This document shows, in pieces, positions 2,695-39,832 of a stretch of DNA of 64,000 nucleotides. Location of the stretch: assembly GCA_024305745.1 (NCBI GenBank), contig JAHRBS010000006.1, positions 2,110,501 through 2,174,500 on the forward strand, given 5' to 3'. Both the position numbers and the translations under genes were made by a program. The notes under the pieces were generated by a model. The model worked only from the letters and a program-made list of their open reading frames with translations, was not told where the DNA came from and made no database searches. Position 1 is the stretch's first letter. The number at the start of each line of letters is the position of its first letter. This stretch comes from Polyporus tsugae. Its lineage: Eukaryota > Basidiomycota > Agaricomycetes > Polyporales > Polyporaceae.

Positions 2695-4854
2695 ATGAAA
2701 CTCTCCCAGGCTATGGTCGTCGGAGACCTGCCCCTCCCTATAGTCGCCATCCTCCTCGTACTGGTCGTCGGATTATGGTATACCATTCTTAACCGTCGAC
2801 GTCTCCCGCTCCCTCCCGGACCAACGCGTCTGCCCGTACTGGGAAACATATTCAACATGCCGAGTGCCATACCGTCAGGGGAGAAGTACTACGAGTTGAC
2901 GAAGAAGTACGGTACGACCATGTGTTTCCGGCATCCGGTGTCTTGGATACTGACCGTGTGTGGCAGGCGACGTCGTTTATCTCTCGGTGCTCGGCAATCG
3001 TCTGGTCCTCCTTGGTTCCTACGACGCCGCATCAGAACTACTGGACAAGCGCTCGTCTAACTACTCGGACAGACCCCAGCCCGTCATGACAGACTTGTGA
3101 GTTCCTCCGCATCGTAGTCATCAGCGTTAGGCTTGAATATTGCCCCACATCCAGACTGGGAGCCGGATGGGCCCTCATCTTCAACCGCTACGGGGACCTG
3201 TGGCGGCGCCGAAGACGGGACTTCCACCATTTCTTCGGCTCACAGTCGATCGCGCAGTACCAGCACGTCCAGGAAGATGCTGCGCGACTGCTCCTGCGAC
3301 TTCTTACGCACAACCCAGAGGCGTTCTGGGACCATATACGCTTGTGAGCTGCTCATGTCTGCTCAATGTTAACGTTTTCAACGCTGACCGTCGAGTCGTC
3401 CATACAGTGTCTTCGGGTCCACGATACTGCGCATCGTTTACGGTATCAAGCCGGCGAACCCCAGAGACGAGTACGTCAGCCTAGCCGAAGCGTCTGTCAA
3501 GATTTTGGACAAGGCGTACACCCCGGGTAAATACCTCGTGGAAGTGTTCCCGTTCCTCAAGTACGTCCCGCAGTGGATGCCTGGAGCGCAGTTCCAGTGC
3601 GACGTGGCGGCGTGGAAGGTCACCATCGCAGACACGCGAAACAAGCTGTTCGATGCGGCGCTGGAGTTCATGGTGAGCCGATCCACGGTTTGATTCCGAC
3701 AGAGTGTGATAATTGGTCGTACGCAACAGCGCCGCGGAAATGCCCAGCCTTGTATCGTGTCGACCATGGTCGAACAGTCCGGCGCGAAAGGCGAGTGGTC
3801 GCCCGACAGCGACGAGCACGCTCGCGACGTATCCGGCATAGCGTATCTCGGTGAGTCCGTGAGCGGACTAAGGACTCGTGCCTCCCCACTGACGTTTCAT
3901 TGTGCACAGGGGGCGTGGACACCGTCAGCCCTAGTCATTCCGTCCATGCTTACATTGGATACTAACATTCACGCATATCAGCTTGTGGCGTCGTTCCAAA
4001 CCTTCCTCTTGGCGATGGCTATGTACCCCGACGTGCAGCGGAAGGCGCAGGCCGAGCTCGATGCAGTCGTCGGCCAAGACCGCCTCCCCCGGCTGTCCGA
4101 CTGCGACTCGCTACCGTACATCAATGCGCTCTACAACGAGGTGCTGCGCTGGAAGGTCGTCGGGCAGCTCGCGTTCCCACACCAGTCGCTCGAGGACGAC
4201 GAGTATAACGGGTACCTGATTCCCAAAGGGACAGTGTTCCTTGCGAACGTCTGGTGAGCAGCCACGGACTAGCCGCAGTAGATGATAGCTCGCTGCGAAT
4301 TAGCGTGTCCTTACCTGCCCTTTCTCTTCTAGGGCAATCTCGCGGGACCCGAAGCAGTATCCCGATCCGGATCGGTTTATGCCCGAGCGGTTCCTGAAGG
4401 ACGGAAAGCTCAATCCGGATGTCCGCAATCCTCGCGCGTTCGCGTTCGGCTTCGGAAGGAGGTGAGGTGTATTGTATCCGAAGATATCGTGGACGGCACG
4501 TCCGTCGCTAACGAACCCTGTCCCTTCGCTGCAGGAGTTGCGCCGGGAAGCACTTCGCCGAGCCGTCGCTCTTTATCGCGATGGCGAGCGTCTTGCACGC
4601 GCTCGTGGTCGATCCGCCACTGGACGAGCGGGGAAGCCCGCGGGTGCTGACGGACGATGATATCAAGATGGTGCAGTCGTTTGTGGCGTGCGTCTCTCCT
4701 CCAGAATCCGCCGTATATGGATGGGGGATGGACTGACACCGTCTTGCTGTGCAGGCACCCTGAACCACTCCAGTATAGGTTCCGGCCGCGGACCAGAGCG
4801 ATGCAATCTCTTGTGCTAGCTGACATCGCCAATGAGGCGGAAGGCGGGTTATGA
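2695..4854 (+). CDS. cytochrome P450 (intact, about 10 exons)
   Basis: Microsomal class II P450 monooxygenase of roughly 520-530 residues. The start at 2695 gives a short lumenal tail, a transmembrane helix around residues 14-32, basic residues and the proline hinge LPLPPGPTRLP. Conserved parts read in order through GT-AG introns: the WRRRRRDFHHFF helix-C region, PGKYLVEVFPFLKYVP, an I-helix GGVDT encoded by a 14-base micro-exon (3910-3923), the K-helix glutamate/arginine in NEVLRW, MPERFLKDGKL, and the heme loop FGFGRRSCAGKHF with the cysteine ligand. No frame break was found. It ends 155 bp from the convergent P450 at 5010-7131, which belongs to the same subgroup. It probably oxidises a lipophilic substrate, and the nearby sesquiterpene cyclases make a terpenoid a reasonable guess. 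I cannot assign a CYP family. The I-helix has GGVDT where its relatives have GGADT or AGADT. Confidence 0.9.
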
Positions 4855-5009: not shown

Positions 5010-7131
5010 TTAGATACTGTCAGCGTCATCTTCGTTGTACGCCGCCCGAATCAGCGTCTCAGCCTCTGAGGACCGGGGCTTGATGACGCATTCGAAAGGC
5101 ATGGGGTATCTAGGCTGCGGGGTTAGCAAAGTACGGGACTAGAGCGACATGCAACAGACAGATGACACTCACGAGATAACGCCATGCGTCATCTTGATAG
5201 TGTCCTTCAGGTTGATGGGCTCACCGCGCGCATCGCGCGGCGCTTCGACCCACAAGGTGTGGAGAATGCGAGTCACGACGGCATAGACCGAGCCCTCTGC
5301 GAAGTAGCGGCCCGGACAGATCCTGTAACAGAGTGACGTTGAGGACAACTTTCCCCGATCATGCATGTGGAGTCAGCGCACCTGCGTCCATATCCAAAGA
5401 TTATCGTTGTGGGGTCTTGTACGCTCGGGTCCAGCTTTCCGTCCTTGAGGAATCTCTCCGGCTTGAACGTCTCCGGGTCCGGGTACAGGTTTGGGTCTCG
5501 GACGTACGCCCTGTGGTGCGACAGATGATTGGGCATGAGACATAACCTTTCGCTGTCCAGGAAACAAACTTACCAAGGGTTCGCTACGACGGCGGACCGT
5601 GCTGGGATCCGGAACCCCTTGTACTCATCTTCCTCGATTGACAAGTGTACGAGCGCGAGCGGCACAACGGGCCTCCAGCGGAGACACTCCTTGATGAGCG
5701 CACAGACGTACGGGAGATCGTTCTTGTCTGCGAAAGTAGGGAGACGGTTCGGACCGACGACGGCCTCGAGTTCGGCTTGGGCCCGCTTCTGAACTTCCGG
5801 GTAGGACGCCATAGCGATGTAGAAGGTCTGCAGGGTAGAAAGCGTCTGACGGTGTGTCCGGACGGTTAGCATGCATGAACTGCAACGTATAACATAACCT
5901 TGGAACGCACGGTATCGGCTCCACCTAGAAGTCAAATCTATGTCAGCCTGGCTCTTATATGCAACATTGGAGCTGTTGCTCACCCGCATACGCGGACGCG
6001 ATGGCGTTCTTGGAGAACTCTTCCTCCTCTACCGCGGCTTCACCGTCAAGGTGAGCCATCCGATCGAGGAGACCGTTCGCCATAGAGGGCAAGCCGCGGC
6101 CCTCACGCTATAAACCAGGGCAAGAACCTAGTTAGCGATATAGAGATGGAACGGCCGCTTCCCCTCACCAAGGCTGTCATGGCTGCCTCCCATGGCGCGT
6201 CTCGCATCTTGCGGACGATCGAATAACAGTCCGCCGCATCGCGCTTGAATTGCGTCCCGGGCAGGGGGTACGGAAGGTAGCGCATGATGGGGAAGGATTC
6301 GACGAGGTACTTTCCTGGCACGAAGAGCTGGGAGAAGGTCTCCATGGCCTTCTCGGCAATGCCAAGGTAGTCGGTTCCCTTCTCCTTGTCGACCTCGATG
6401 CCGTACCCCACCCGAATAGTGATGGTTCCGAACAAGCTAAGACAGTTCGCGTGTCAGTGAGCTCACGGGTAAAGCGATCACAGAGAGAAGGCTTACGCCC
6501 GGCCATGATGGAGGAAGTCTTTGGGGGTCTCGAGGATGCGGAGAAGGTACTTGGCTGCCTCGCGCTCTTGGATCGGACGGTAGCGCACGACAGCGTTCGG
6601 GTGCATGTACTCGTGGAAAAGACGTCTTGTTCGCCGCCACTGAGCGCCGTAGCTATTAACCGAGAAGAGCCATGTCCAGCCCGACCTACGGAGCGTATGG
6701 CGTCAGCGGATGACGTTAGTCATATCTTGGTAGGAAAGCTCTCACAGGGAGGCCACGCATGAGAAAAGCCTGTCGGAGTAGTTGGAAGAACGCTTCTCAA
6801 GCAAGTCAATGGCGGCCTGGTGTGATCCAAGCACGATCATTGGCTGTCCACAGGCATTGAGGTACACGATTTCTCCTACGGCGCCAGGTCAGAATAGATG
6901 AACATAAATTCAAGCCCATCGGAACGTACCGTATTTCGCATTTATGTCGCGGAATGCTGGTTCCATATCACGAGTGGGCACATCGAGGAAGTTGCCGATG
7001 ATAGGATAGCCTGGAGGACTCGGAGGGAGTGGCAACTTGCCAGAGGTCAACCGAGACTGTCTGGCCTTATACAGGAGCGCGACTACAACGACGACGGATA
7101 AAATGAACCACTGAGGGAGATCAGCTATCAT
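5010..7131 (-). CDS. cytochrome P450 (intact, multi-exon)
   Basis: Membrane-anchored P450 read on the minus strand. The start at 7131 (MIADLPQWF) is preferred to an in-frame ATG at 7170 because a TATTTAAA box at 7186-7193 would place transcription between them and the 7131 ATG has a good CACC context. It has an N-terminal transmembrane helix, the hinge KLPLPPSPPGYP, WRRTRRLFHEY, PGKYLVESFPIMRYLP, GGADT in a 14-base micro-exon (5911-5924), ECLRW (ExxR), FKPERFLKDGKL and the heme loop FGYGRRICPGRYFAEG. A last intron splits the end; the final exon carries PMPFECVIKPRSSEAET and stops at 5010-5012. Every exon joins in frame. The domain order matches the P450 at 2695, so the two probably arose by duplication. 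Likely an oxidase of the surrounding terpenoid cluster, by inference from position only. Confidence 0.9.
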
Positions 7132-13216: not shown

Positions 13217-14897
13217 ATGGCTGTTACACAAACGCATGACAGGTGAGTTCCACCGTTCAACGGCTTTTCCGCGATGGACTCGCCCCCATCGATGTGCCCG
13301 AGACCACACGAAAATATGCGCCTTGCGCTATTGTACTGTGGGCATCATATTTTATTTGCTCAACCTCATTGTATAGGCAATGTGATAACATCGTCGTCGA
13401 CTTCGGCGGCGTACTGTTCACCTGGTCCGCAAACACGATGACTCCAGTCCGCCCCAAGCTCCTCCGCCACATCTTTTCCTCATCTATCTGGTTCGAGTAC
13501 GAGAGGGGCAACATAACTGAGCAAGAGTGCGTGCAACTCGTCGCGGCCGAGTTCTCAGTCTTCGAAGTGGACTTTGCCCGTGCGCTCAAGAACGCGCGTC
13601 GGTCCATCCGCCTCAACGACGCGGTATTCGACCTCTTGCGCAACCTGAAGAAGCGCACTGGCATCCGTAGCTTCGCCGTGGCGAACATCTCGAGCTCGGA
13701 GTGGGACCTCCTCCGGCGCAAGATGGAGCCCGAGGTTTGGGCGCTGTTCGATCACATCTACACGTCCGCGGACATCGGCGAGCGCAAGCCTAACCTTGGC
13801 TTCTTCAAGCACGTTCTTGAATCTGCGGATATCAACCCTGCTCGTACGGTTTGGGTGGATAACAGAGCGGAGAATGTCGTTTCCGCCGCGTCAATTGGCA
13901 TGAATGCCATGACGTTCACAACCGCCGAGGAGCTGTCTCATGCGCTCACCGCGCTCACCCGGGACGCCGTCGCTGACGCAGAACGGTGGATGCGCGGCCA
14001 TGCGCGAGAAATGTGGTCTATCACCGATACTGGCGTTGCGCTCGAGGAGAACTTTGGACAGCTCCTGATTCTGGACGTCACCAAGGACGCGAGTCTTGCC
14101 AACATCGTCGCGCCTACGAGGCTCGCAAACTTCTTCAGAGGTGCGTCCGAATTGTATTGCCGTTTGCTCGAGTGCTGATCGATGCTGCAGGGAGAACCGT
14201 CCTCACTACCGTCACCTTCCCCAACGACCTGAACACTACGTCAACGGCATGCATGGCGTTAGGCGCCTTCCGGCAGGAAGTGAAGGACGATATCATAGAC
14301 GAGATACTGTCGATCAAGACCGGTGAGGGCCTTGTTCCGACGTACTTTGACAACACCCGCCCTCGCATAGGTACATTCCCCCCGTCGCATTCGCTTGCTG
14401 AGACTGTATGACGAGCTTCCATACACCCAGATCCTGTCGTCAACGTCAACGTTCTCACCTTTTTCTGCTTGAATGGCCGCGGTCATGAGCTCCCCGAGGC
14501 GCTCGACTGGGTACACTCCGTCCTGCACGCGCGCGCGTACGAGCACGGCACGCTCTACTTCCCCTCCGGCGACGCGTTCCTCTACTTCCTCTCGCGCCTT
14601 CTCGCCGTGTCCCCGGCTGTGCGTCAGCGCCTCAGCAAGCTCTTCGCTGAGCGTGTTCAGGAGCGCTCCGGCGCGGAGGGCGACGCGCTCGCGCTCGCGA
14701 TGCGCGTCGTCGCGGCGGCGTCTGTCGGCGTGAGGGCGGCGCGCGATTACGAGAAACTGCTGGCGATGCAGGAGGAGGACGGGTCGTGGCCGGTGGGGTG
14801 GATGTACAAGTATGGGTCGAACGGGGTTAGGATTGGGAACAAGGGGTTGACGACGGCGATGGCTGTCGCGGCGATTCGCAAGTATGGGGTGGTATAA
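13217..14897 (+). CDS. HAD/class II terpene cyclase fusion, catalytically degenerate paralogue
   Basis: Four exons (13217-13242, 13377-14140, 14191-14370, 14431-14897) join to exactly 479 codons including the stop, 478 residues. The N-terminal half is a HAD-like domain (VVDFGGVLFTW near residue 15, GERKPNLGFF near 145). The C-terminal half is a class II terpene-cyclase-like domain (MWSITDTG, FPNDLNTTS, QEEDGSW, GVRIGNKG). The architecture is that of the AstC/drimenol/albicanol synthase class, which cyclises farnesyl diphosphate by protonation. Compared with the tandem copy at 16061, several key residues differ: the class II acid in DxDTT is Asn (codon 14232-14234), the HAD motif II serine is Ala (FAVAN against FAMSN), motif IV DD is DN, and motif I DLGD is DFGG. 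The start is chosen because ATG 13217 spliced at 13243/13377 gives the frame and mirrors the short first exon of the neighbour. Open frame and splice sites are intact. It may be a pseudoenzyme, a partner subunit or an enzyme with changed chemistry. Confidence 0.85.
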
Positions 14898-16060: not shown

Positions 16061-17719
16061 ATGCCTAGTCGGTAAGTCTGTTCATCTTTCCCTGCTCACT
16101 CATCTCGCCATGCACGCTCACGTTCCACTCGTCAGACAATGTGACAATATCATCATCGATCTGGGCGATGTGCTCTTTACGTGGACTATGCGGAGCTCAG
16201 ACCCTCACACTCTCGTCCCGCCAAAGAAGCTTCGCAGGATGCTGAACTCTGCCATTTGGTACGAGTACGAGAAAGGCAACATAGAGGAAGAGGAGTGCTA
16301 CGCGCGCCTCTCCTCCGAGTACTCCCTCTCCACGTCCGATATATCCACTGCCATCCGGGCTTGCCGCGCCTCCCTACGAGCCGACCGCGAAGCATTTGCG
16401 TTCTTCCGGGGTCTGAAAGCGAACAGCGGCGTGCGGCTCTTCGCCATGTCGAACATTACCGTTCCCGACTGGGAGGTCCTCAAGATGAAGATGGTGGCGC
16501 AGGATTGGGCCCTCTTCGACGACATCTTCATCTCGGCTTCGGTGGGTGAACGCAAACCAAACCTTGGATTCTATCGACACGTCATCGACTCGACTGGCAT
16601 CGACCCTCGGCGGACGGCGTTCGTGGACGACAAGGTCGCAAACACCTTGACTGCTATGTCGTTCGGTATGAAGGGTTTCGTCTTTACCGGACTAGAGCAG
16701 CTCTCGCGATGGCTTCAACAACTTCTTCGTGACCCAGCCGCCGAGGCTGCGAAGTGGCTGCGGGCCCAGCCGAAGCCGATATGGTCTGTTACGGATACCG
16801 GGGTCACTGTGCAAGACAGCTTCGCCCAACTGTTTATCCTCGAACTTACGGGGGACAACAGTCTCGTCGAGGTGGCGAGGCCCTCCCGGCTCAACAACTT
16901 CTTCATAGGTGAGACTCCTGCCGCCATACATATCGTTCCTTCGCTCACCTACCACACCTTGATGGCCCGGGCAGGGGATGGTGTTCTCACATCCGCCAAA
17001 TTCCCAGACGATTTGGACACAACGTCGCTCACATGTACCGTCCTAGACCACTTCACCGCGGAGGTGAAGAACGAGATCATAGACGAGATGCTCAACTACA
17101 AGAACCGCGACGGCATCATGCAAGTGTACTTCGCCGACGATCGTCCCCGATTTGGTGAGTGCAGAACACCCACCTTGTCTCAGAGCTTCCTCGGACGTCT
17201 AAGATTGTGGCCACAATCTTAGACCCGTGCGTATGCGTGACCATCCTCGCGTTCTTCTATGCCAACGGCCGCGGAGACGATCTCCCCGAGACGCTCGAGT
17301 TCGTCTACAACACCCTCGACAACCGCGCGTGCGATAACGGGACCGCGTACTATCTCGGCGGCGACCCCTTCTTCTTCTTCCTCTCCCGACTCCTCCGTCT
17401 CTCAAAGTCGGCTTCCCTCAGAGAGCGGTTCAGCGCACTCTTCGCGGAACGAGTCCAAGAGCGCTTCGGGTTACCAGGAGACGCGTTGACGTTGGCCATG
17501 CGCGTCCTCGCTGCGGCCTCAGTCGGCATACGTGACGTGCAGGACTATCAGCGACTATTGTCGCTCCAGGAGGAGGATGGGTCGTGGCCGTTGGGATGGA
17601 TGTATATCTATGGGCTATCCGGGGTTAGGATTGGGAACAAGGGCTTGGCGACAGCTATGGCGCTTGCAGCGATACAGAGGTACAGAGCATGCTTGAAAGT
17701 AGGAGCTGGGGGGGAGTGA
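16061..17719 (+). CDS. drimane-type sesquiterpene synthase (HAD/class II cyclase fusion)
   Basis: Four exons (16061-16071, 16136-16908, 16975-17154, 17223-17719) sum to 487 codons, 486 residues, with the same intron positions and phases as the gene at 13217. The first exon is only 11 bases and encodes MPSR up to the split arginine codon. HAD half: IIDLGDVLFTW, FAMSN (motif II), GERKPNLGFY (motif III lysine), AFVDDK (motif IV). Cyclase half: IWSVTDTG, FPDDLDTTS at 16998-17027 with the expected catalytic Asp at 17016-17018, LQEEDGSW, GVRIGNKG. Known relatives (AstC of Aspergillus oryzae, fungal and bacterial drimenol/albicanol synthases) protonate farnesyl diphosphate with the DxDTT Asp to form a drimane skeleton, and the HAD domain can remove phosphate. 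Probably cytosolic and likely the core enzyme of the cluster. The product (drimenol, albicanol or a diphosphate) cannot be read from sequence. Confidence 0.9.
17197..17224. repeat. 28-bp perfect palindrome across a 3' splice site
   Basis: GTCTAAGATTGTGG is followed directly by its exact reverse complement. The palindrome ends two bases into exon 4 of the drimane-type synthase gene, so it contains the intron 3 acceptor AG (17221-17222). The tandem paralogue has an ordinary acceptor (CACCCAG) at the same place. Confidence 0.85.
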
Positions 17720-17973: not shown

Positions 17974-20057
17974 TTACTGAAGGTTGGCCCACTCGGATTT
18001 GATTATGGCTTCCACCTTCTCCGAGCGCGAGCTGATCTCGCACTCGAATGTTTCAGGGACACTACATAAATACGTGTTTGTTGGTGGCTAACATAACAAG
18101 ATGGTTGATCGACCAGAACTCACGACATGAATCCTGGTTTCATTTTGCCTTCAGGGAGCTTGGGTACTCCGGACACGTCGCAACGCGGTTTGATGGAGAA
18201 GGCGTGCAGCACCGACGCAACGGTGATAAAGAGCGACGCTTCCGCAAAGTGGCGTCCAGGACATATTCTGGGGGGCAAGCCGTGTCAGCGCATCCGTCGT
18301 AAGTAATTCGAAGTGCGCAGTACGCACCTCCGTCCGTGGCCAAAAGCGTAGAGTCTGGGGTCGAGAACATCGAGGTTAAGCCCGCTGTCTCTGAGAAAAC
18401 GTTCCGGGATGAAGTTATCCGGGTCGGGGTACATCTGCGGATCGCGGGAGATAGCCCTGAGAGGGGATATTGAGTACTTTCTCTGCAGCGACGCGAGTTC
18501 ACTCAGGTGCTCACCATGAACTAGCGAAAATCAACGATCCCTTCTGGATTGTGTATCCACGAAATACATCATCGCTCCGAGACTTGTGAGGGAACCCTAG
18601 GCCGATAATTGGCTTCCACCTCAACACCTCTAGAATTAGCGCTTGGATATAGGGGAGCGAGCCGAAGTCGGTCATCTGTGGTAGCCGGTCTCGACCCACT
18701 ATTGTGTCGAGTTCGGCTTGAGCTTTCTTCTGTGCCTCGGGATGGAGAACCATGGCGAGGAAAAAGACTTGTAGAGACGCGTGGACCTGTGGTGGGTGCA
18801 GGGCAAGGGATTAGTCCTGCTCGGGCTAGCTCCACATAGCCGACTGGTCAGATGTGCTTCTTACCGTATCGGCACCACCTGGAGTATTTGTTGAAAATTA
18901 GTGCAATACTGTGATGGTAAAATTCACAACTTACCCATGTATATGACGCCCGCTGCGTCTCGTGCGACTTGCTCGTCTTCCCATGTCATCTCTCCATCGG
19001 AGTGATCGTCTATCAAAGCGGACACCATGCACGGGTTACCCTCTCCGCGATGCTGCTCTATAAAGTGTGTTGTAATACTGTAGTATCAATGTTGAATGGG
19101 ATATCCACTTACCATGTTCTCCAGTGTTCTGTCGAAAGGCTCATTCCGCATTGCGGAGAAAGACTCCCTGTACAGTGAGGCATCTCGATGGAATGTCGCC
19201 TAAGGAAACCAAGCGGGCACATTCCGAAGGAGGGGAAACGTTTCGACTAGGTATTTTCCAGGTGCGAAAGCCGCCTCGAATGCCTCAGCGAAGTCAGCCA
19301 ATAGAGCAACAAATCGATTGTCGGCACCCGCGACATTGAGGCCGTACGTGATGTCCATAATCGTTGCGCCGACGAAGCTGTTTCGATGGCATCAGTCACG
19401 AATCAGAGAATTTGGATATGGCAGAACGCACAGGTAGAGATGGTCAACGAAGGCATCCGGGGTTTCAAATAGGCGGTTTAACAGCAGGCGGGTTTGCCTT
19501 TCCTGTGTCGAATGGAACTGAGAGACGGCTGTCGAGTCGAAGAACCGATGTAACACTTTCCGTCCTTGACGCAACGCTTGGCCATATGGAAGGAGAAGCA
19601 GGATCCATGAAATCCCGGACCTGTGGGGGACAGGGTGAGTCCGTAATACAGCCGGGCCCAGGAGTTATGCAGACACTCACAGCTCTGCCATAATAGACGA
19701 CTCCCTGTCCGAGTTGTTTGCGGAACGTGTATGAAACAAGTCGAAGGCAGTTGAATATGAGCCAAGGATGATCATTCGCTGCCCGAGGACGTTCAGATGA
19801 ACGATATCCCCTGTACAAGTGCGGTTCAGTCCAGGCGCGTCGTTAGAGTCTCAGAAAATTACTCACCATATTTTTGTGTAAGCTCGTAGAAAGCCTGTGG
19901 ATCGAGGGACTTTGGAAAGTTGAAAATGTTACCTAGAAGTGGTAGGCGTTTGGGGCCAGGGGGGCATATAAAGGGAACGATTACGATGAGCCGAATATGC
20001 AAATACTGCCAATCCACAGCCCAGGACTAGGACGATGACGGTAGAGGGTTCGACCAT
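17974..20057 (-). pseudogene. cytochrome P450 pseudogene beside the active cyclase
   Basis: A full-length P450 of the local subgroup, still recognisable from the membrane anchor (start 20057) to the final exon (stop 17974-17976). Preserved: hinge GPKRLPLLGNIFNF, RKVLHRFFD, PGKYLVETFPLL, GGADT in a 14-base micro-exon (18865-18878), LEVLRW, IPERFLRD, the heme loop FGHGRRICPGRHFAEAS and PETFECEIS. Two lesions break it. A six-base G run on the plus strand (19959-19964) shifts the frame just before the hinge. An in-frame TAG (19200-19202) interrupts NVPAWFP-ATFHRD. All intron boundaries still look functional, so inactivation is recent or partly a sequencing artefact (the homopolymer in particular). 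It lies convergent to the cyclase with 254 bp between them, so it may once have been its dedicated oxidase. Confidence 0.82.
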
Positions 20058-26367: not shown

Positions 26368-28527
26368 CTAATCAGATTGGGAGAGGCAAGAAGCGTGGAT
26401 GAGTCCGGCGTGTCCAGAAGAGCGTGGCTTGATGCTGCAAGGGAATGGAACCGGGTATCTGGAGGGCGCGACGCAACCCCATAAGCAGGAGAATGTAGCC
26501 CAAATGCGAAAAGCACTCACGAGATGACACCGTGCGACATCTTTGCCTCCGGAGCGATCGGCTTCCCGCGTTCATCCACCGCGTAGTCGATGGTGAGCGT
26601 GTGGAGGACCGAGGCGATCATGACGAATAGTGAAGCCTCTGCGAAGTGGCGGCCTGGGCAGATCCTGTGATTGCAGGCCAGTGGGTCGGAAATGAAGCGA
26701 TGATGCTGCAGGCGGGGAAAAGTCATTGCACATACCTGCGCCCATAGCCAAACACGAACGTGTTGGGGTCCTGTACGTCGGAGTTGATCTTGCCGTCCTT
26801 GAGGAAGCGCTCCGGGTTGAAGGTCTCTGGGTCGGGATAGACGCGCTCGTCACGGGAGAATGCATAAAGGTTCGCGATCACGGTGGAGCCCTTGGGAATG
26901 AAGTACCCGTTGAACTCGTCGTCCTCAAATGAGCGGTGAGGGACTCCGAGAGGGACTACGGACTGCCAGCGCATCGACTCCTTGGCAATAGCGGTGATGT
27001 AGGGCAGCGAATCACGGTCCCCGAAGTTGGGGAGGCGGTTCGGGCCCACAACGGCGTCAAGTTCAGCCCGCGCTTTGGCTTGGACTTCGGGGTAGCACGC
27101 CATGGCCATGAAGAAGGTTTGAACGGTGGAGATGGTCTGCAGGCACATTATTGTATCTGATCTGCAGCAGTGAGCATGCTTCGACACTTACGGTGTCAGC
27201 ACCAGCTGTATATATGCGCAGCAGAAGTTAGCACAGGGAAACATTAGGCGCTAACGATGTACCTACCGGCATAAGCAAGAGCGGATACGTCTCGGGCGAC
27301 GATCCGTTCTTCCGAGATGTCCGAGCCATCCTTGCGCTGGGCGTTCTCCATGAGCGTCGTCGCGATTGACTGCTCTGCCGTACCCCTTGCCTGTCATGCA
27401 CGCATGAATAGATATAGCGACTCCGCACACAAGTATCATGTAGACTTACCCAGGACTCCATCGTCCTCTCGAAGGGCGCATCGCGCATGTTGTGCGCAAT
27501 GTCCTTCCAAGCTGCTGCGGTACGCTTGAAGCCGGCACCGGGGAACCAAGCCGGAATGTATTTAAGGATGGGAAATGTCTCCACAAGAAAGGCCCCAGGG
27601 ACGAACGCCTCGTTGAACGTTTCAACCCCATTCTCCACGGCTGTCACGTATTGGTCGTTTTCGTCCGCGACTTTGATGCCATACGAGATGCGCATGATCG
27701 TGGATGCGAAGGACCTGTAAACGGCAGGAGTAAAACGTGAGTTAAGGTTTTTGCGGCAAAGACCCGAAGTAAGGTTAGACATGAGGAATGGAGGCACGTA
27801 CTGGCGGACCTGGTGGAGGAAGGTGTCGGGCTTCTCTAAAAGATTCTTCAAGAACTTCACTGCTTCGCGCTGCTGCAACGGTTGATACTGAGCGACCGCA
27901 TTAGGGTGGAAGAACTGGTGCAATTCCTTTCTCCTGCGGCGCCAAGGCAAGCCGTAAGGCATGAGCACGAATGTCCACTCCCAGCCGGAGCTGTGAAGGA
28001 CAACAAGCATCGGTCAGCGAAGCTCCACGTGAGCGGTCAAAAGGATGAGTTTGAGTGGAGGGGGTGTCACTCACAGTTCCCTCATCGGGGACGGGTGCCT
28101 ATCGGAGTAGTTTGCAGACCGCTTATCCAAGAGCTCCGACGCCACCTCGTGCGAGCCGATAATGATCATGGGTTGGCCGAGCGCGTCGAGATATACGACA
28201 TTGCCTGGTTGACGGTGCACGAGGCACTTAAATGAGGACGAAATTTTAACGAACGGGAGGAGAATGCTTACCGTACTTGTCGGTCATCTCCTTGAATCGT
28301 TGACCCATCATCGTGGTGGGCATATCTGCGGCATTGCCAATAAGCGGCAGAGGCTTCGGTCCGGGAGGGAAGGGGAGGCCGTTACGGGCACGCTGGCCCT
28401 TAAGGGATCGTATGACAAACCGGGATAAAACGAAAAGGAAAGAGAAGACGAGCAGAACCCAGGCAGGTTGGCTCACGGTGACCTTCAGCGCGGACTGGGA
28501 GACATGCGAAGCCATGTCGAGTCCCAT
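26368..28527 (-). CDS. cytochrome P450 (intact, multi-exon)
   Basis: Full-length P450 of the local subgroup. The start at 28527 (MGLDMASHVS) leaves a helical anchor at about residues 18-38 and the hinge GLPFPPGPKPLPLIGN. It reads in frame through SGWEW, WRRRRKELHQFFHP, PGAFLVETFPILKYIPAWFPGAGF, AGADT on a 14-base micro-exon (27192-27205), KESMRW, FNPERFLKDGKI, FGYGRRICPGRHFAEAS and a final exon with PVPFPCSIKPRS, stopping at 26368-26370. Unlike its relatives it has no intron before the AFSRDERVYPDP segment: that junction (NLYAFSRDE) is fused. No lesion was found. Probably active; substrate unknown, possibly the cluster sesquiterpenoid. Confidence 0.9.
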
Positions 28528-33232: not shown

Positions 33233-35362
33233 ATGACGTTCCAGTCCCCCCTCCTGCTCCTGGCCGTCGGTGCCGTTCTGCTCCTCCTCGTGCAGAGGTT
33301 GAAGAAACGCTCATCCCCGCCGCTTCCGCCTGGTCCGCCAGCGCTGCCGCTCATCGGCAACGTACTCGACGTGCCCACCGACGGGCCTGCAGGCTTTCGT
33401 GACTTGTCCACAAAATATGGTGTGTCCACTCATTAGCCATAATACATTAATAATGTTGACCCCTTGTTTCAGGCGATATCGTGCACCTTGATGTCGCTGG
33501 CCAACCCATGATCGTCCTCGGATCGCAAGAAGCAGCCTCGGACCTCCTCGAGAAGAGGTCCTCGAACTACTCAGACCGGGCCCCCTCCCCCATGGTCGAC
33601 ATGTGCGTCATCCTCCTCGCCTTTCTCTCCGCGCGATTTGCTCAGGGACGAAGCTATCGTCCGCCAGTGCCGGATTTGGCTGGGCATTCACCGTGCGGGG
33701 CTACGGCTCGTTCTGGCGGCGCAGCAGACGCGCCTTCCACCAGTTCTTCAACCAGACAGCCGTGCAGAACTACACCGCCGACCACCGCCTTGAGGCCCAC
33801 CGTCTTGTGATGCGCCTCATTGACAAACCGGAGGCGTTCGTGCATCACATCAGGCAGTAAGTCACCTTGCCCCACCCTCGTCTGCTGCTTGTCACGCGGG
33901 CTGACGCGTGGCCGCAGCCTGTTCGGGTCCTCCATCATGCGGGTCGTGTACGGTATCGAGGTCGACGAAGAGCCAGTCGATTATCTCAAGATGGCAGAAG
34001 ACACGATGACGATTTTCTCCGAGGCGTTCCAGCCGGGCAAGTACCTCATCGAGACCCTTCCGTTCCTTCGCTACCTGCCTTCCTGGGTTCCTGGGGCGAC
34101 AGTGAAGCGCAAAGGTGTGGCCTGGCGGCCAGTGGTATGGAAGCTCGTCGAGGAGCCCTGGAAGTTTGTCATGGCTGCGATGGTAAGCACATTCCCACAC
34201 CTTCGCCGCCAGGCACCACGGTTCCACGGTGTACTCACGAGATTGTGGTCACAATGTGTAGAAGGAGGGTACGGCTCGTCCGTCGATGGCGTCTTCCCTG
34301 ATGGTTGACGTGCCCCAATCGTATGGCGAGAGCGACGAGGTGTCCGAAGAGGAAGACATCTACCGCGGTGCCACCGCCACAGCATACGCAGGTGAGCACA
34401 ATCACTCTATCAAGCTCTGATAGGAATGCCTTGAGCCGACGTGAGAAAACAGGTGGAGCGGATACGGTAAGAATGCCACAACGCGAGCAGTTCAATGGAA
34501 GTTGACATCATATCAAGACACTATCCACAGTTCAAACCTTCTTCCTCGCGATGGCGGCCCATTCGGAAGTGCTGAAGAAAGCGCAAGCCGAGCTCGACGC
34601 AGTCGTGGGGCCACACCGACTCCCAGAGTTCGAGGACATGAAGTCGCTCCCATACATCTGTGCCATTGTCAAGGAGCTACTTCGGTGGCGCGTCGTCGTT
34701 CCTCTCGGAGTCCCGCACCGTACCGTGGAGGACGACGAATACCGCGGATATTTTATCCCGAAGGGCTCCTTGCTTGTGTCCAACATTTGGTGAGCGTCCA
34801 TAGCAGGCCGCACTGTTCCGGACTTGAGCCTGATCTTCGTGGCTATCGCCGCATCAGGGCGATCTCGCGCGATCCGAACGTCTACAACGACCCAGACGCC
34901 TTCATGCCCGAACGGTTCCTTAAAGACGGCGAGTTGGATCCAGGCGTGCGCGACCCTGCCACGTTCTCGTTTGGATACGGACGGCGGTAGGTCTTCGTCC
35001 CTTTTTCCAATTCCACCTTTCGTTCCAAGTGTACTGAATCTGCGCGCCTTCGCGTCAGGATTTGCCCGGGAAGGCATTACGCGACTTCGGTCCTGTTCAT
35101 GGTCGCCGCCACTGTCCTGCACACGATGTCAATCACTGCACCGCTAGGCGAAGATGGCAATCCAGTCCGCCTGGAAGGGAAGATGACGTATGGGCTCCTT
35201 TCGTGAGTCGCGGACTGTATCCTGTTTCGGTGTTGGATTGTACTTATCCGATGGGACAACAGGTACCCGGAACAGTTCAAATGCGTTATCAAACCAAGGT
35301 CAGACGAGGCTGCGGCGCTCATTAAGGCGAGCTGTGGCAACTTTGAAGGGCTCCGTGAGTAG
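33233..35362 (+). CDS. cytochrome P450 (intact, multi-exon)
   Basis: Starts MTFQSPLLLLAVGAVLLLLVQ, a clear membrane anchor, followed by the hinge PPLPPGPPALPLIGNVLD. Exons join in frame through HLDVAGQPMIVLGS, FWRRSRRAFHQFFN, PGKYLIETLPFLRYLPSWVPGA, GGADT on a 14-base micro-exon (34453-34466), KELLRW, MPERFLKDGEL, FGYGRRICPGRHYATS and a last exon EQFKCVIKPRSDEAAAL ending with TAG at 35360-35362. The product is about 520 residues, with no lesion. Closest in layout to the other P450s of this block. Likely ER-anchored and dependent on a P450 reductase encoded elsewhere; substrate unknown, terpenoid by context. Confidence 0.9.
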
Positions 35363-37685: not shown

Positions 37686-39832
37686 ATGGCTACCGACTAT
37701 CCATTCGGCTCCGTCTTTCGGATTGCGACGCCACTGTTTCAATTGTTCATCGTTGCATCCACTCTCGTCATCACCTTCTCCATCGCGCAATATCTCCGCC
37801 AGACGTATGGAAAGCGGCTCCCTCTTCCCCCCGACCCTCGTCCTCTTCCAGTCATCGGAAACCTCTTCGACATCTCGAAGACATTCTCCGCCCGCGAGTA
37901 TCCCGAGTTATCCAATAAATACGGTATGTCCTAGTCTCTGGGTACAGCTGTTCGATCTGCTAACGGATCACTCTGATCCAACCCATAGGTGACGTCGTCT
38001 ACCTCAGCGCCCTTGGCCAGCGCATTATCGTCCTAGGCTCATTGGAGGCGGCTAATGGGCTCCTGGACAGACGATCTGCAAAGTACTCCGGAAAACCATA
38101 TTCAGCGATGAGCGAGTTGTACGTATGAGCAGATTTCTGGTGCCGTTTATCGTGCTTACGGGCTGAACTCCTGAAGAATCCAACTCGAGTGGAGCGTCGC
38201 CCTTCAAAGCAGCAGCGGAGAAATGTGGCGCAAGCAGCGCCGAGGGCTTCACAAGTTTTTCAGCGTCACTTCAGCCGCGCAATGGAACGACATGCAGGAG
38301 AGTAGCGCCGCCAGTTTGCTCACGCTGCTTCTCGAAGACCCTCAAAGGTTCTCCGAGCATGTCCAATTGTACGTCTGCTACCATCGCTACTGTACGGCAT
38401 TCTGATTGGTTTTTGTTGGATAGCAATGCGAGTCGCCTACGGAATCTCACCCAAAGATCAACATGACGAGGCTCTCGCGCTCGCTATGGAGGGAGTAAAG
38501 ATCTTCACGGAAGCTTTTGTCCCAGGGAAATACCTGGTCGAGAGCTTCCCTATTCTTTAGTACATCCCTCCGTGGTTCCCTGGCGCAGGTTTCCGGAGGC
38601 TGCAAGATGGAGGCATACATACGAACTTGTTCGGAATAAGTCGTTTGACAAGTCTGTTGCTAGAATGGTGAGCGGCTCGTTTTCGACCTATTGGGAAGGT
38701 CCCTGACTTCTCGACTTCCGCAGCGCAAGGGTTCGTTTGAGCACTCCATGGTCACAGCCATGGTCACAGCCATGGTCAAAGAGGCGGAAGAGGAAGGGAC
38801 TTTTTCGCCTCAAGACGACGCTGTTGTACGGGGCGTTTCAGTCTCTGTACATCTCGGTACGCCGTCCTCCACGCCTCACGACTGTATGGAGCTCACACGA
38901 TATACCCGCGGTCCTCCTCAAGGGGGAGCCGATACTGTAAGTGTTTGGTACCGCGCAGAATACTTACTTTGCCGCCTCACTTATCCATTCGTTACAGACT
39001 CTAGCAACAATCCGGGTGTTCTTCCTTGCCATGACGCTCAACGCAGAAGCGCAGAAGCGAGCGCACGCCGAACTCGACGTAGTGATCGGTTCAGATCGTC
39101 TTCCTTCCCTTCGCGACCGCGAATTTCTCCCTACGTTGGGGCCCTAGTGATGGAGTGCCACCGGTGGCACCCGATCCTGCCCCTCGCGCTGCCCCGCACA
39201 TACACGGGCGAAGACGATGATGAGTACAATGGGTACCGCATCCCGAAGGGCTCGATCCGAGTCCTGGCAAACACATGGTACGCTTCGTCGCTTCCGAAGA
39301 TGCAGAGCAGTACCGAGGGAGAGCCCCTTTAGGGCATTCGCTCATGACCCGCATAACTACCCCGGCCCGGAGAGGTTCATGCCCGAGCAGTACCTGACTG
39401 GCGAGGGCAAGCTGAACCCTGACGTTCGTGACCCCCGCACGTTCACGTTCGGATACGGGCGAAGGTGAGTCACCTTGTGTTCTGTCTTCGTGACAATGAA
39501 CCAGTAAGCCGGATGCTCATCTCGCGATGCAGGGTCTGCCCGGGGAAGCGTGACTTCGGTGACGCAGCCGTTTGGATTACGATGGCGTCTGTCCTGCATA
39601 CCTTCAACATCGACCCCCCTCTCAACGAGAAGGGCGAAACCATTGACCTCATCTCATCCGCAAGTTTCATGAAGGCGTCTTGTCGTAAGTTGTCGAGGTT
39701 GATTTGGCTGCAGCGCTTGCACTCAAAACTGATACCATTACTCGACACAGTGCGCCGGAGGCTTTCCAGTGTAGGATTGGCACGCCCCAGTCTTCCACAG
39801 CGGAAGCCCTGATCCGCCAAACCGCAGCTTGA
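37686..39832 (+). pseudogene. cytochrome P450 pseudogene (stop plus frame shifts)
   Basis: Full-length copy with anchor (MATDYPFGSVFRI), hinge PLPPDPRPLPVIGNLFD, MWRKQRRGLHKFF, GGADT on a 14-base micro-exon (38933-38946), FMPEQYL, FGYGRRVCPGKRDFGDAA and a last exon ending TGA at 39830-39832. Damage: the start of the fourth large exon lacks about five codons before MRVAYGIS; an in-frame TAG at 38558-38560 splits SFPIL from YIPPWFPGAG; about 50 bases later the frame shifts into RWRHTYELVRNKSFD; a further shift lies between REFL and PYVGALVME near 39125. A 12-base tandem repeat (38747-38782) adds extra Met-Val-Thr-Ala units. The hinge has PPDP where relatives have PPGP, and the heme-loop tail is divergent (KRDFGD). 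Not functional as one polypeptide. Confidence 0.82.
38747..38782 (+). repeat. 12-base tandem repeat inside the P450 pseudogene
   Basis: Two exact copies of CATGGTCACAGC followed by a partial third (CATGGTCA). In frame it encodes repeated Met-Val-Thr-Ala. The related intact P450s do not have it. Probably replication slippage. Confidence 0.75.

Follow-up and report, generated by a model that had tools for sequence, protein, structure and literature searches.

Gene A, located in the 64-kb stretch of DNA that was analysed (the window), is, as judged from its sequence, a conserved but deficient paralogue within the already known family of HAD-like terpene cyclases. In its TC domain, this natural and conserved protein bears the pair of changes known from laboratory mutants to inactivate the enzyme, namely Asn for the general acid Asp and Phe for the Tyr that hydrogen-bonds the acid. 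All members of one clade share these losses, and gene A has diverged no faster than its neighbour, gene B. Sequence comparison thus supports the view that gene A is a selected, catalytically deficient paralogue and makes neutral decay unlikely, because the losses are fixed in four genomes, the divergence is no faster than that of gene B, and the family-conserved sites are spared. As for its role, we tentatively favour a non-catalytic protein that works by partnership as the non-turning subunit of a dimer, a reading to which we give slightly less than an even chance; the dimer partner, the regulatory role and the loss of the phosphatase activity are what we infer from the features described below.

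The preliminary description of this locus proposed a cyclase paralogue that kept its reading frame but lost key residues in both domains, and much of it was reproduced here. The four exons (Table 1), separated by introns that are all of the GT-AG type (3/3), indeed give 478 uninterrupted codons and a stop. The spliced protein is matched by PF00702 at residues 49-183 (Pfam) and by AstC, the drim-8-ene-11-yl diphosphate synthase of Aspergillus oryzae, at residues 10-474 (E 3.9e-95); it also aligns with AsDMS, the drimenol synthase of Aquimarina spongiae, in both the HAD fold and the class II TC beta domain. Where DxDTT with its general acid Asp would be expected, gene A and three relatives carry DLNTT, and the Asn codon that had been reported was read as AAC again. 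Also as described, FAVAN and VDN of gene A correspond to FAMSN and VDD of gene B, so that neither the motif II Ser/Thr nor the second motif IV Asp expected of the phosphatase is present (Ala111 and Asn171). The motifs said to be kept were found as well: QEEDGSW, which agrees with the QW motif Qxx(D/G)G(G/S)W as defined in an excerpt of PMC5024094, and GVRIGNKG are common to A and B, and WSITDTG of gene A is WSVTDTG in gene B. The description had missed a second change in the TC domain, namely Phe367 in gene A against TAT (Tyr) in gene B; in the pair positioning the acid (Y361 and N324 in AstC), therefore, the Asn is kept but the Tyr is replaced.

Table 1. Positions in the window of genes A and B, of selected residues of gene A, and of the P450-like frames
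Feature	Position	Strand	Remarks
Gene A exon 1	13217..13242	+	spliced model
Gene A exon 2	13377..14140	+	HAD-like domain and start of TC domain
Gene A exon 3	14191..14370	+	carries DLNTT and head-group residues Tyr315, Arg320, Arg322
Gene A exon 4	14431..14897	+	Asn330, Tyr366, Phe367, QEEDGSW, GVRIGNKG, stop
Asp17	13399..13401	+	HAD nucleophile, aligned with AsDMS D43; kept
Ala111	13681..13683	+	replaces HAD motif II Ser (AsDMS S138)
Asn171	13861..13863	+	replaces second motif IV Asp (AsDMS D196)
Glu174	13870..13872	+	aligned with AstC D169 (salt bridge near TC-HAD interface); kept
Asn278 (AAC)	14232..14234	+	aligned with AstC general acid D273, AsDMS D333
Asn330	14448..14450	+	aligned with AstC N324; kept
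Phe367 (TTC)	14559..14561	+	aligned with AstC Y361, AsDMS Y427 (Tyr hydrogen-bonding the acid)
Gene B	16061..17719	+	exons 16061-16071, 16136-16908, 16975-17154, 17223-17719; 486 aa
P450-like frames	3694-4257, 5570-6028, 18511-18810, 26723-27187, 34445-34990, 38664-39332		Pfam

DFGG in motif I, on the other hand, had been counted as a lost catalytic residue, and this we rejected; the first Asp (the nucleophile) aligns with AsDMS D43 and the Gly with G45, which binds metal in AsDMS (excerpt of PMC12365925), and the change concerns the fourth position alone, where the alignment has Asp in 160/186 and Gly in 8/186 rows. The proposal of a selected pseudoenzyme consequently stands as far as a catalytically deficient paralogue with losses fixed in a clade is concerned, while its argument from motif I was wrong. 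The description also looked to dN/dS between the two copies for signs of neutral decay; dN is 0.377, dS is 1.71 and the ratio is about 0.22, a value that is near saturation and averages over old history.

Cyclisation by the gene A protein is strongly expected to be lost, because the published D-to-N and Y-to-F mutants of its relatives are dead. According to the excerpts of the papers cited in this paragraph, either D273N or Y361F abolishes the product of AstC, N324A of AstC is inactive, and AacA D270N loses cyclisation but still releases phosphate (PMC13244436), while D333N and Y427F of AsDMS are inactive (PMC12365925); a change of the second Asp to Asn in the DDxxE stretch of AstC had been noted in 2016 (PMC5024094). 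Crystals of AstC D273N (PMC13244436) and of AsDMS D333N (PMC12365925) hold FPP. In AsDMS, furthermore, Y373, R378 and Y426 are needed for phosphate recognition, and R380A leaves the activity unharmed (PMC12365925). Loss of the phosphatase activity of the gene A protein is likely but less certain: all activity is lost in AsDMS D196A but is merely reduced in S138A (PMC12365925), and AstC is devoid of phosphatase activity even though product selectivity is affected by its HAD domain (PMC13244436). This inactivity of AstC is not directly transferable to gene A, because AstC also has Glu in place of the nucleophile that gene A keeps; the HAD residues of AstC are given as Glu13, Asp166 and Asp167 in PMC13244436, whereas our numbering of the chain, anchored at D273N, reads Asn166. 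A residual phosphatase activity of gene A would be possible, given that the nucleophile (D17), the Gly (G19), the Asn (N112), the motif III Lys (K146) and the first motif IV Asp (D170) are kept.

The distribution of these losses was examined with three protein searches (the best 120 of 136 matches, the best 120 of 181, and 69 exon-4 fragments) and a 186-row alignment of 181 listed proteins, AstC, genes A and B, and two genes on another contig, C9. Both Asp columns are present in 179 rows, and removal of six HAD-only fragments (P0111, P0114, P0115, P0116, P0118 and P0119) and of the AstC crystal mutant left 172 natural rows. The acid position in these rows is Asp in 166, Asn in five (gene A, P0001, P0002, P0003 and P0168) and Glu in one. 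Gene A, P0001 (Ganoderma leucocontextum; 90% identical to gene A), P0002 (G. sinense; 83%) and P0003 (Dichomitus squalens; 75%) form one clade with a support of 100, whose placement relative to the adjacent branches has low support (19); the nearest proteins come from Ganoderma. Each protein of this A clade has Phe at the column of AstC Y361; the other rows of the 186-row alignment have Tyr (166 rows), Phe (P0101), Leu (P0062) or Ile (P0077), the last two within a gapped stretch, or a gap (13 rows). In the 69 exon-4 fragments, the same column is Tyr in 59, Phe in three, Pro in one and gapped in six; two of the fragments with Phe (P0182 and P0183) are nearest to the A clade, and the third (P0235) is doubtfully aligned. 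P0168 from Lactarius hengduanensis has DLNTT with the Tyr and the HAD motifs intact and is otherwise ordinary-looking, and P0167 from Suillus paluster has DLETT and misses part of the N-terminal region.

Across the 159 other members of the family, 60 columns reach a conservation of 95% or more; at these the A clade has four fixed changes, two of which fall among the three acid-network residues (P about 0.01, post hoc). An acid relocated to the position of AstC 324 was looked for as Asp and not found, the A clade having Asn there. We also considered whether the HAD loss is special and rejected this idea, since 30 of the 175 rows in which none of the four HAD positions is gapped depart from D/S-T/D/D, and these departures arise in several lineages, AstC and the A clade among them. 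As read from the alignment, then, departures from the phosphatase motifs arose often in the family, and it is the acid loss, not the HAD loss, that is the unusual feature. The HAD fragments P0030, P0032 and P0034 have the same Ala and Asn as the A clade, and Trametes/Cubamyces relatives (P0027, P0028, P0039, P0088, P0108 and P0121-P0125) have degenerate HAD motifs and keep DxD.

Selection was judged from the proteins, namely by a tree of 170 rows, the variability of columns, and simulated neutral replacements. In the tree, the distance between gene A and P0001 (0.148) is similar to that between gene B and P0011 (0.154), and those of A-P0002 (0.268) and P0001-P0002 (0.302) compare with 0.405 for P0012-P0023 and 0.536 for B-P0023; while the true orthologue of gene B in each species is uncertain, as G. 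leucocontextum has two B-type proteins (P0011 and P0012), these protein distances indicate that gene A is no faster-diverging than gene B. The columns varying within the A clade fall from 55 of the 97 least conserved columns of the family to 5 of the 60 invariant ones, as compared with 57/97 and 7/60 in the B clade. Among 20,000 simulations of neutral replacements, the mean BLOSUM62 score reached at least the observed one in 545 for A-P0001 and in none for A-P0002, and in 735, 13 and 1785 for B-P0011, B-P0012 and P0012-P0023, respectively; the replacements between A and P0001 are thus only weakly more conservative than neutral. The diphosphate-binding positions 309, 314, 316 and 360 of AstC (Y373, R378, R380 and Y426 in AsDMS) are invariant in the A clade, albeit that position 316 counts little, since R380A is harmless; the base D271 and the N324 position (AstC numbering) are also invariant. 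In contrast, three of the five invariant family columns that vary in the A clade (230, 257 and 446 in AstC) line the hydrocarbon pocket, where F257 is replaced with Leu or Trp and Y446 with Cys in single members; three of the six pocket columns among the 60 thus vary (P 0.005, chosen post hoc), against 1/7 in the B clade. Such a pattern would fit a protein whose folding and hold on the diphosphate are maintained, but whose geometry for cyclisation is not under constraint. The fold of A's orthologue is predicted to be intact, with the model of P0001 matching AsDMS over 452 residues; the rmsd of 19 over the whole chain probably comes from a different placement of the domains.

Gene B, which is 51.5% identical to gene A, has DLDTT, the HAD Ser and DD but also Thr328 at the position of AstC N324 and Ala172 at that of AstC D169. 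Its clade comprises six Ganoderma-type proteins (gene B, P0009-P0012 and P0023), all of which (6/6) have Ala at the latter position, where 154 of the 159 others have Glu or Asp; relative to AstC, N324 is replaced with Thr and W344 with Phe in this clade, and positions 447 and 450 hold Ile and Leu. Gene B is therefore itself atypical and, as a partner, may not be an ordinary active enzyme, because Thr occupies the N324 position, at which the Ala mutant of AstC is inactive. The window was searched for relics of additional copies of A or B, and none was detected at E 1; matches to the A/B flanks elsewhere in the window lie downstream of B only, in the region of P450-like frames. A scan of the A-B interval for bacterial promoters and terminators gave nothing above chance, with bacterial models that are ill-suited to a fungus.

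In the partnership that we tentatively favour, the TC domain of gene A, without the proton donor and its Tyr, would be dead for the protonation and cyclisation of FPP, and the HAD domain, which keeps the nucleophile but misses the Ser that binds phosphate and one of the Asp residues for the metal, would hydrolyse poorly or not at all. The predicted fold, the residues for the head group of prenyl diphosphates and the interface Glu are retained. A head-to-tail dimer was recently reported for the fungal family (PMC13244436), and gene A could serve in it as the subunit that does not turn over. In the AstC dimer, the HAD domain of the partner caps the TC site, with an R316-D169 salt bridge at the constriction (excerpt of PMC13244436). 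The HAD domain of gene A would likewise form a lid over the TC site of a partner that is active, gene B being the simplest candidate, and the cyclised diphosphate would be shaped there but left unhydrolysed. Both neighbours are unusual, gene A in the acid pair and gene B in its Ala and Thr, which hints at a possible shared enzyme. G. sinense has both the A and B types under consecutive tags (GSI_09300 and GSI_09301), and the contigs of P0001 (A type) and P0012 (B type) in G. leucocontextum are equally long. An obligate pairing of A and B, however, is not supported: among the matches listed, those of D. squalens include the A orthologue and other HAD-TC proteins (P0006 and P0007) without any member of the B clade, and those of G. 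adspersum include two B-clade proteins with consecutive tags but no A. A stricter version, in which a split terpene cyclase is assembled from A and B as a head-to-tail heterodimer, with the proton donor coming from B and the HAD lid from A, together with the interface Glu that is missing in the B clade, looks unlikely from the sequences; were it true, an unhydrolysed cyclised diphosphate would leave one site, and the live phosphatase of B would face the dead cyclase of A. A search of the open-access literature found neither a terpene cyclase made of one live and one dead paralogue nor an inactive product-controlling subunit for class II terpene cyclases.

Among the alternatives, the one that we regard as possible though doubtful is altered chemistry, in which gene A would still be catalytic, be it with a different acid, on a different substrate or at its HAD site, and the changed TC site would serve a reaction that needs no Asp donor. 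The invariance of D271, N324 and the head-group positions, the fold predicted for the orthologue, and the kept HAD nucleophile and Lys would all agree with this, but the acid and the Tyr are lost together, and the pocket that is nearly invariant elsewhere varies in the A clade; the drifting pocket leans against a tightly held chemistry on farnesyl diphosphate. The same replacements of F257 and Y446 would alter the pocket of a stand-alone binder, namely a sink or sensor that holds FPP or a cyclised diphosphate unconverted, and make this role rather improbable, even though the corresponding Asn mutants of AstC and AsDMS bind FPP in crystals and Tyr315, Arg320 and Tyr366 of gene A align with Y373, R378 and Y426 of AsDMS. 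We also doubt, somewhat more strongly, that a slow phosphatase is the real function of gene A with the TC domain as a scaffold. The five HAD residues kept, together with the reduced but not abolished activity of AsDMS S138A, speak for such a crippled enzyme; however, gene A has Asn where D196A deprived AsDMS of all activity, and the TC domain is conserved at least as well as the HAD domain in A-P0002 (84.5 vs 81.8% identity) and A-P0003 (78.7 vs 71.4%) and about equally in A-P0001 (89.9 vs 90.5%), albeit that P0001-P0002 shows the opposite (80.2 vs 83.6%).

Neutral decay, in which gene A is a pseudogene that has yet to break, is quite improbable. Catalytic residues are gone, the A-like copies P0238 and P0250 have a decayed appearance, and no intact A is among the matches listed for G. 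adspersum, but the losses are common to Ganoderma and Dichomitus proteins, the divergence is no faster than that of B, and the family-invariant columns are spared. Also, about 12.6 nonsense changes are expected under neutrality for the roughly 340 replacements in the A clade and none was seen, with the caveat that a copy has to be intact to be recognised as a full-length protein, so that broken ones would escape the listing. Least credible, and hardly worth entertaining, is a sequencing error or RNA editing, by which the transcript would really encode Asp; a single base separates AAC from GAC, but Asn278 is no sequencing error because relatives in three other species carry the same Asn in their records, and the separate Phe (TTC vs TAT in B) is beyond one edit. 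As for the decayed-looking copies, P0238 of G. leucocontextum is annotated as 230 aa, keeps DLNT and misses some stretches; its middle partly resembles gene A's own shifted frame, its decay is judged from the annotated protein, and its contig and that of the B-type P0011 are equally long.

With the non-catalytic partner as the tentative reading, gene A may be compared with known systems. AstC (PDB 22tz), which was identified by sequence and is not among the listed matches of the fold search (library to April 2026), has the two-domain HAD-TC architecture of gene A and shares its HAD substitutions (VAN and DN); according to excerpts of its description, it is a dimer without phosphatase activity whose HAD domain shapes cyclisation. 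AstC is nonetheless an active cyclase in which D271xD273 and Y361 are in place, whereas gene A has Asn and Phe by nature; the Asn in the PDB chain of AstC is there since the D273N mutant was crystallised. AacA from Aspergillus aculeatus and AncA/AncC from the antrocin cluster of Antrodia cinnamomea are, like gene A, fungal HAD-like terpene cyclases, but AacA is bifunctional as a cyclase and phosphatase, and the antrocin cluster encodes two dual-functional enzymes, as the title of the paper says (Angew. Chem. 2023); in the excerpts of these sources, no catalytically dead partner is mentioned. AsDMS (PDB 9m7d-9m7f), with which the drimenol synthase 9mhs was grouped as a comparison structure, is bacterial and, unlike gene A, active as the wild type. 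Inactive homologues that modulate an active one in a heterodimer are described in excerpts on GPPS.SSU of plant geranyl diphosphate synthase (PMC6651613) and on the prozyme of trypanosome AdoMet decarboxylase (PMC5201418), and inactive subunits control the product in plant prenyl-diphosphate synthases (PMC6651613). In these two cases the partnership has been shown, whereas for gene A it is proposed from sequence. The folds of GPPS.SSU and of the prozyme are unrelated to the HAD-TC fold. With gene A, the part played by the half that does not cyclise in a head-to-tail HAD-TC dimer would become directly testable; this half could set the form of the product, namely diphosphate, monophosphate or alcohol.

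A Pfam scan of 20 other open frames in the window revealed six cytochrome P450 matches at E <=0.001 and one at 0.009, and the P450-like frames around A and B look as in a terpenoid or secondary-metabolite gene cluster. Six-frame searches of the genome (43.2 Mb, 18 contigs) with the HAD part and exon 4 of gene A hit A, B, two further HAD-TC genes and one HAD-only gene, the last three on contig C9. One of the two HAD-TC genes (L009) has DVDTT and intact HAD motifs. The other (L010; 2156000-2159500) has intact DLDTT and degenerate HAD motifs (DVSD, FGTFN and VGHD), and is a possible diphosphate-releasing cyclase of the AstC type. The HAD-only relative (L011; 2614000-2618400) lacks a TC domain, has its motifs intact over 215 aa, and is perhaps comparable to AstI and AstK, the separate phosphatases of the astellolide cluster (excerpt of PMC5024094).
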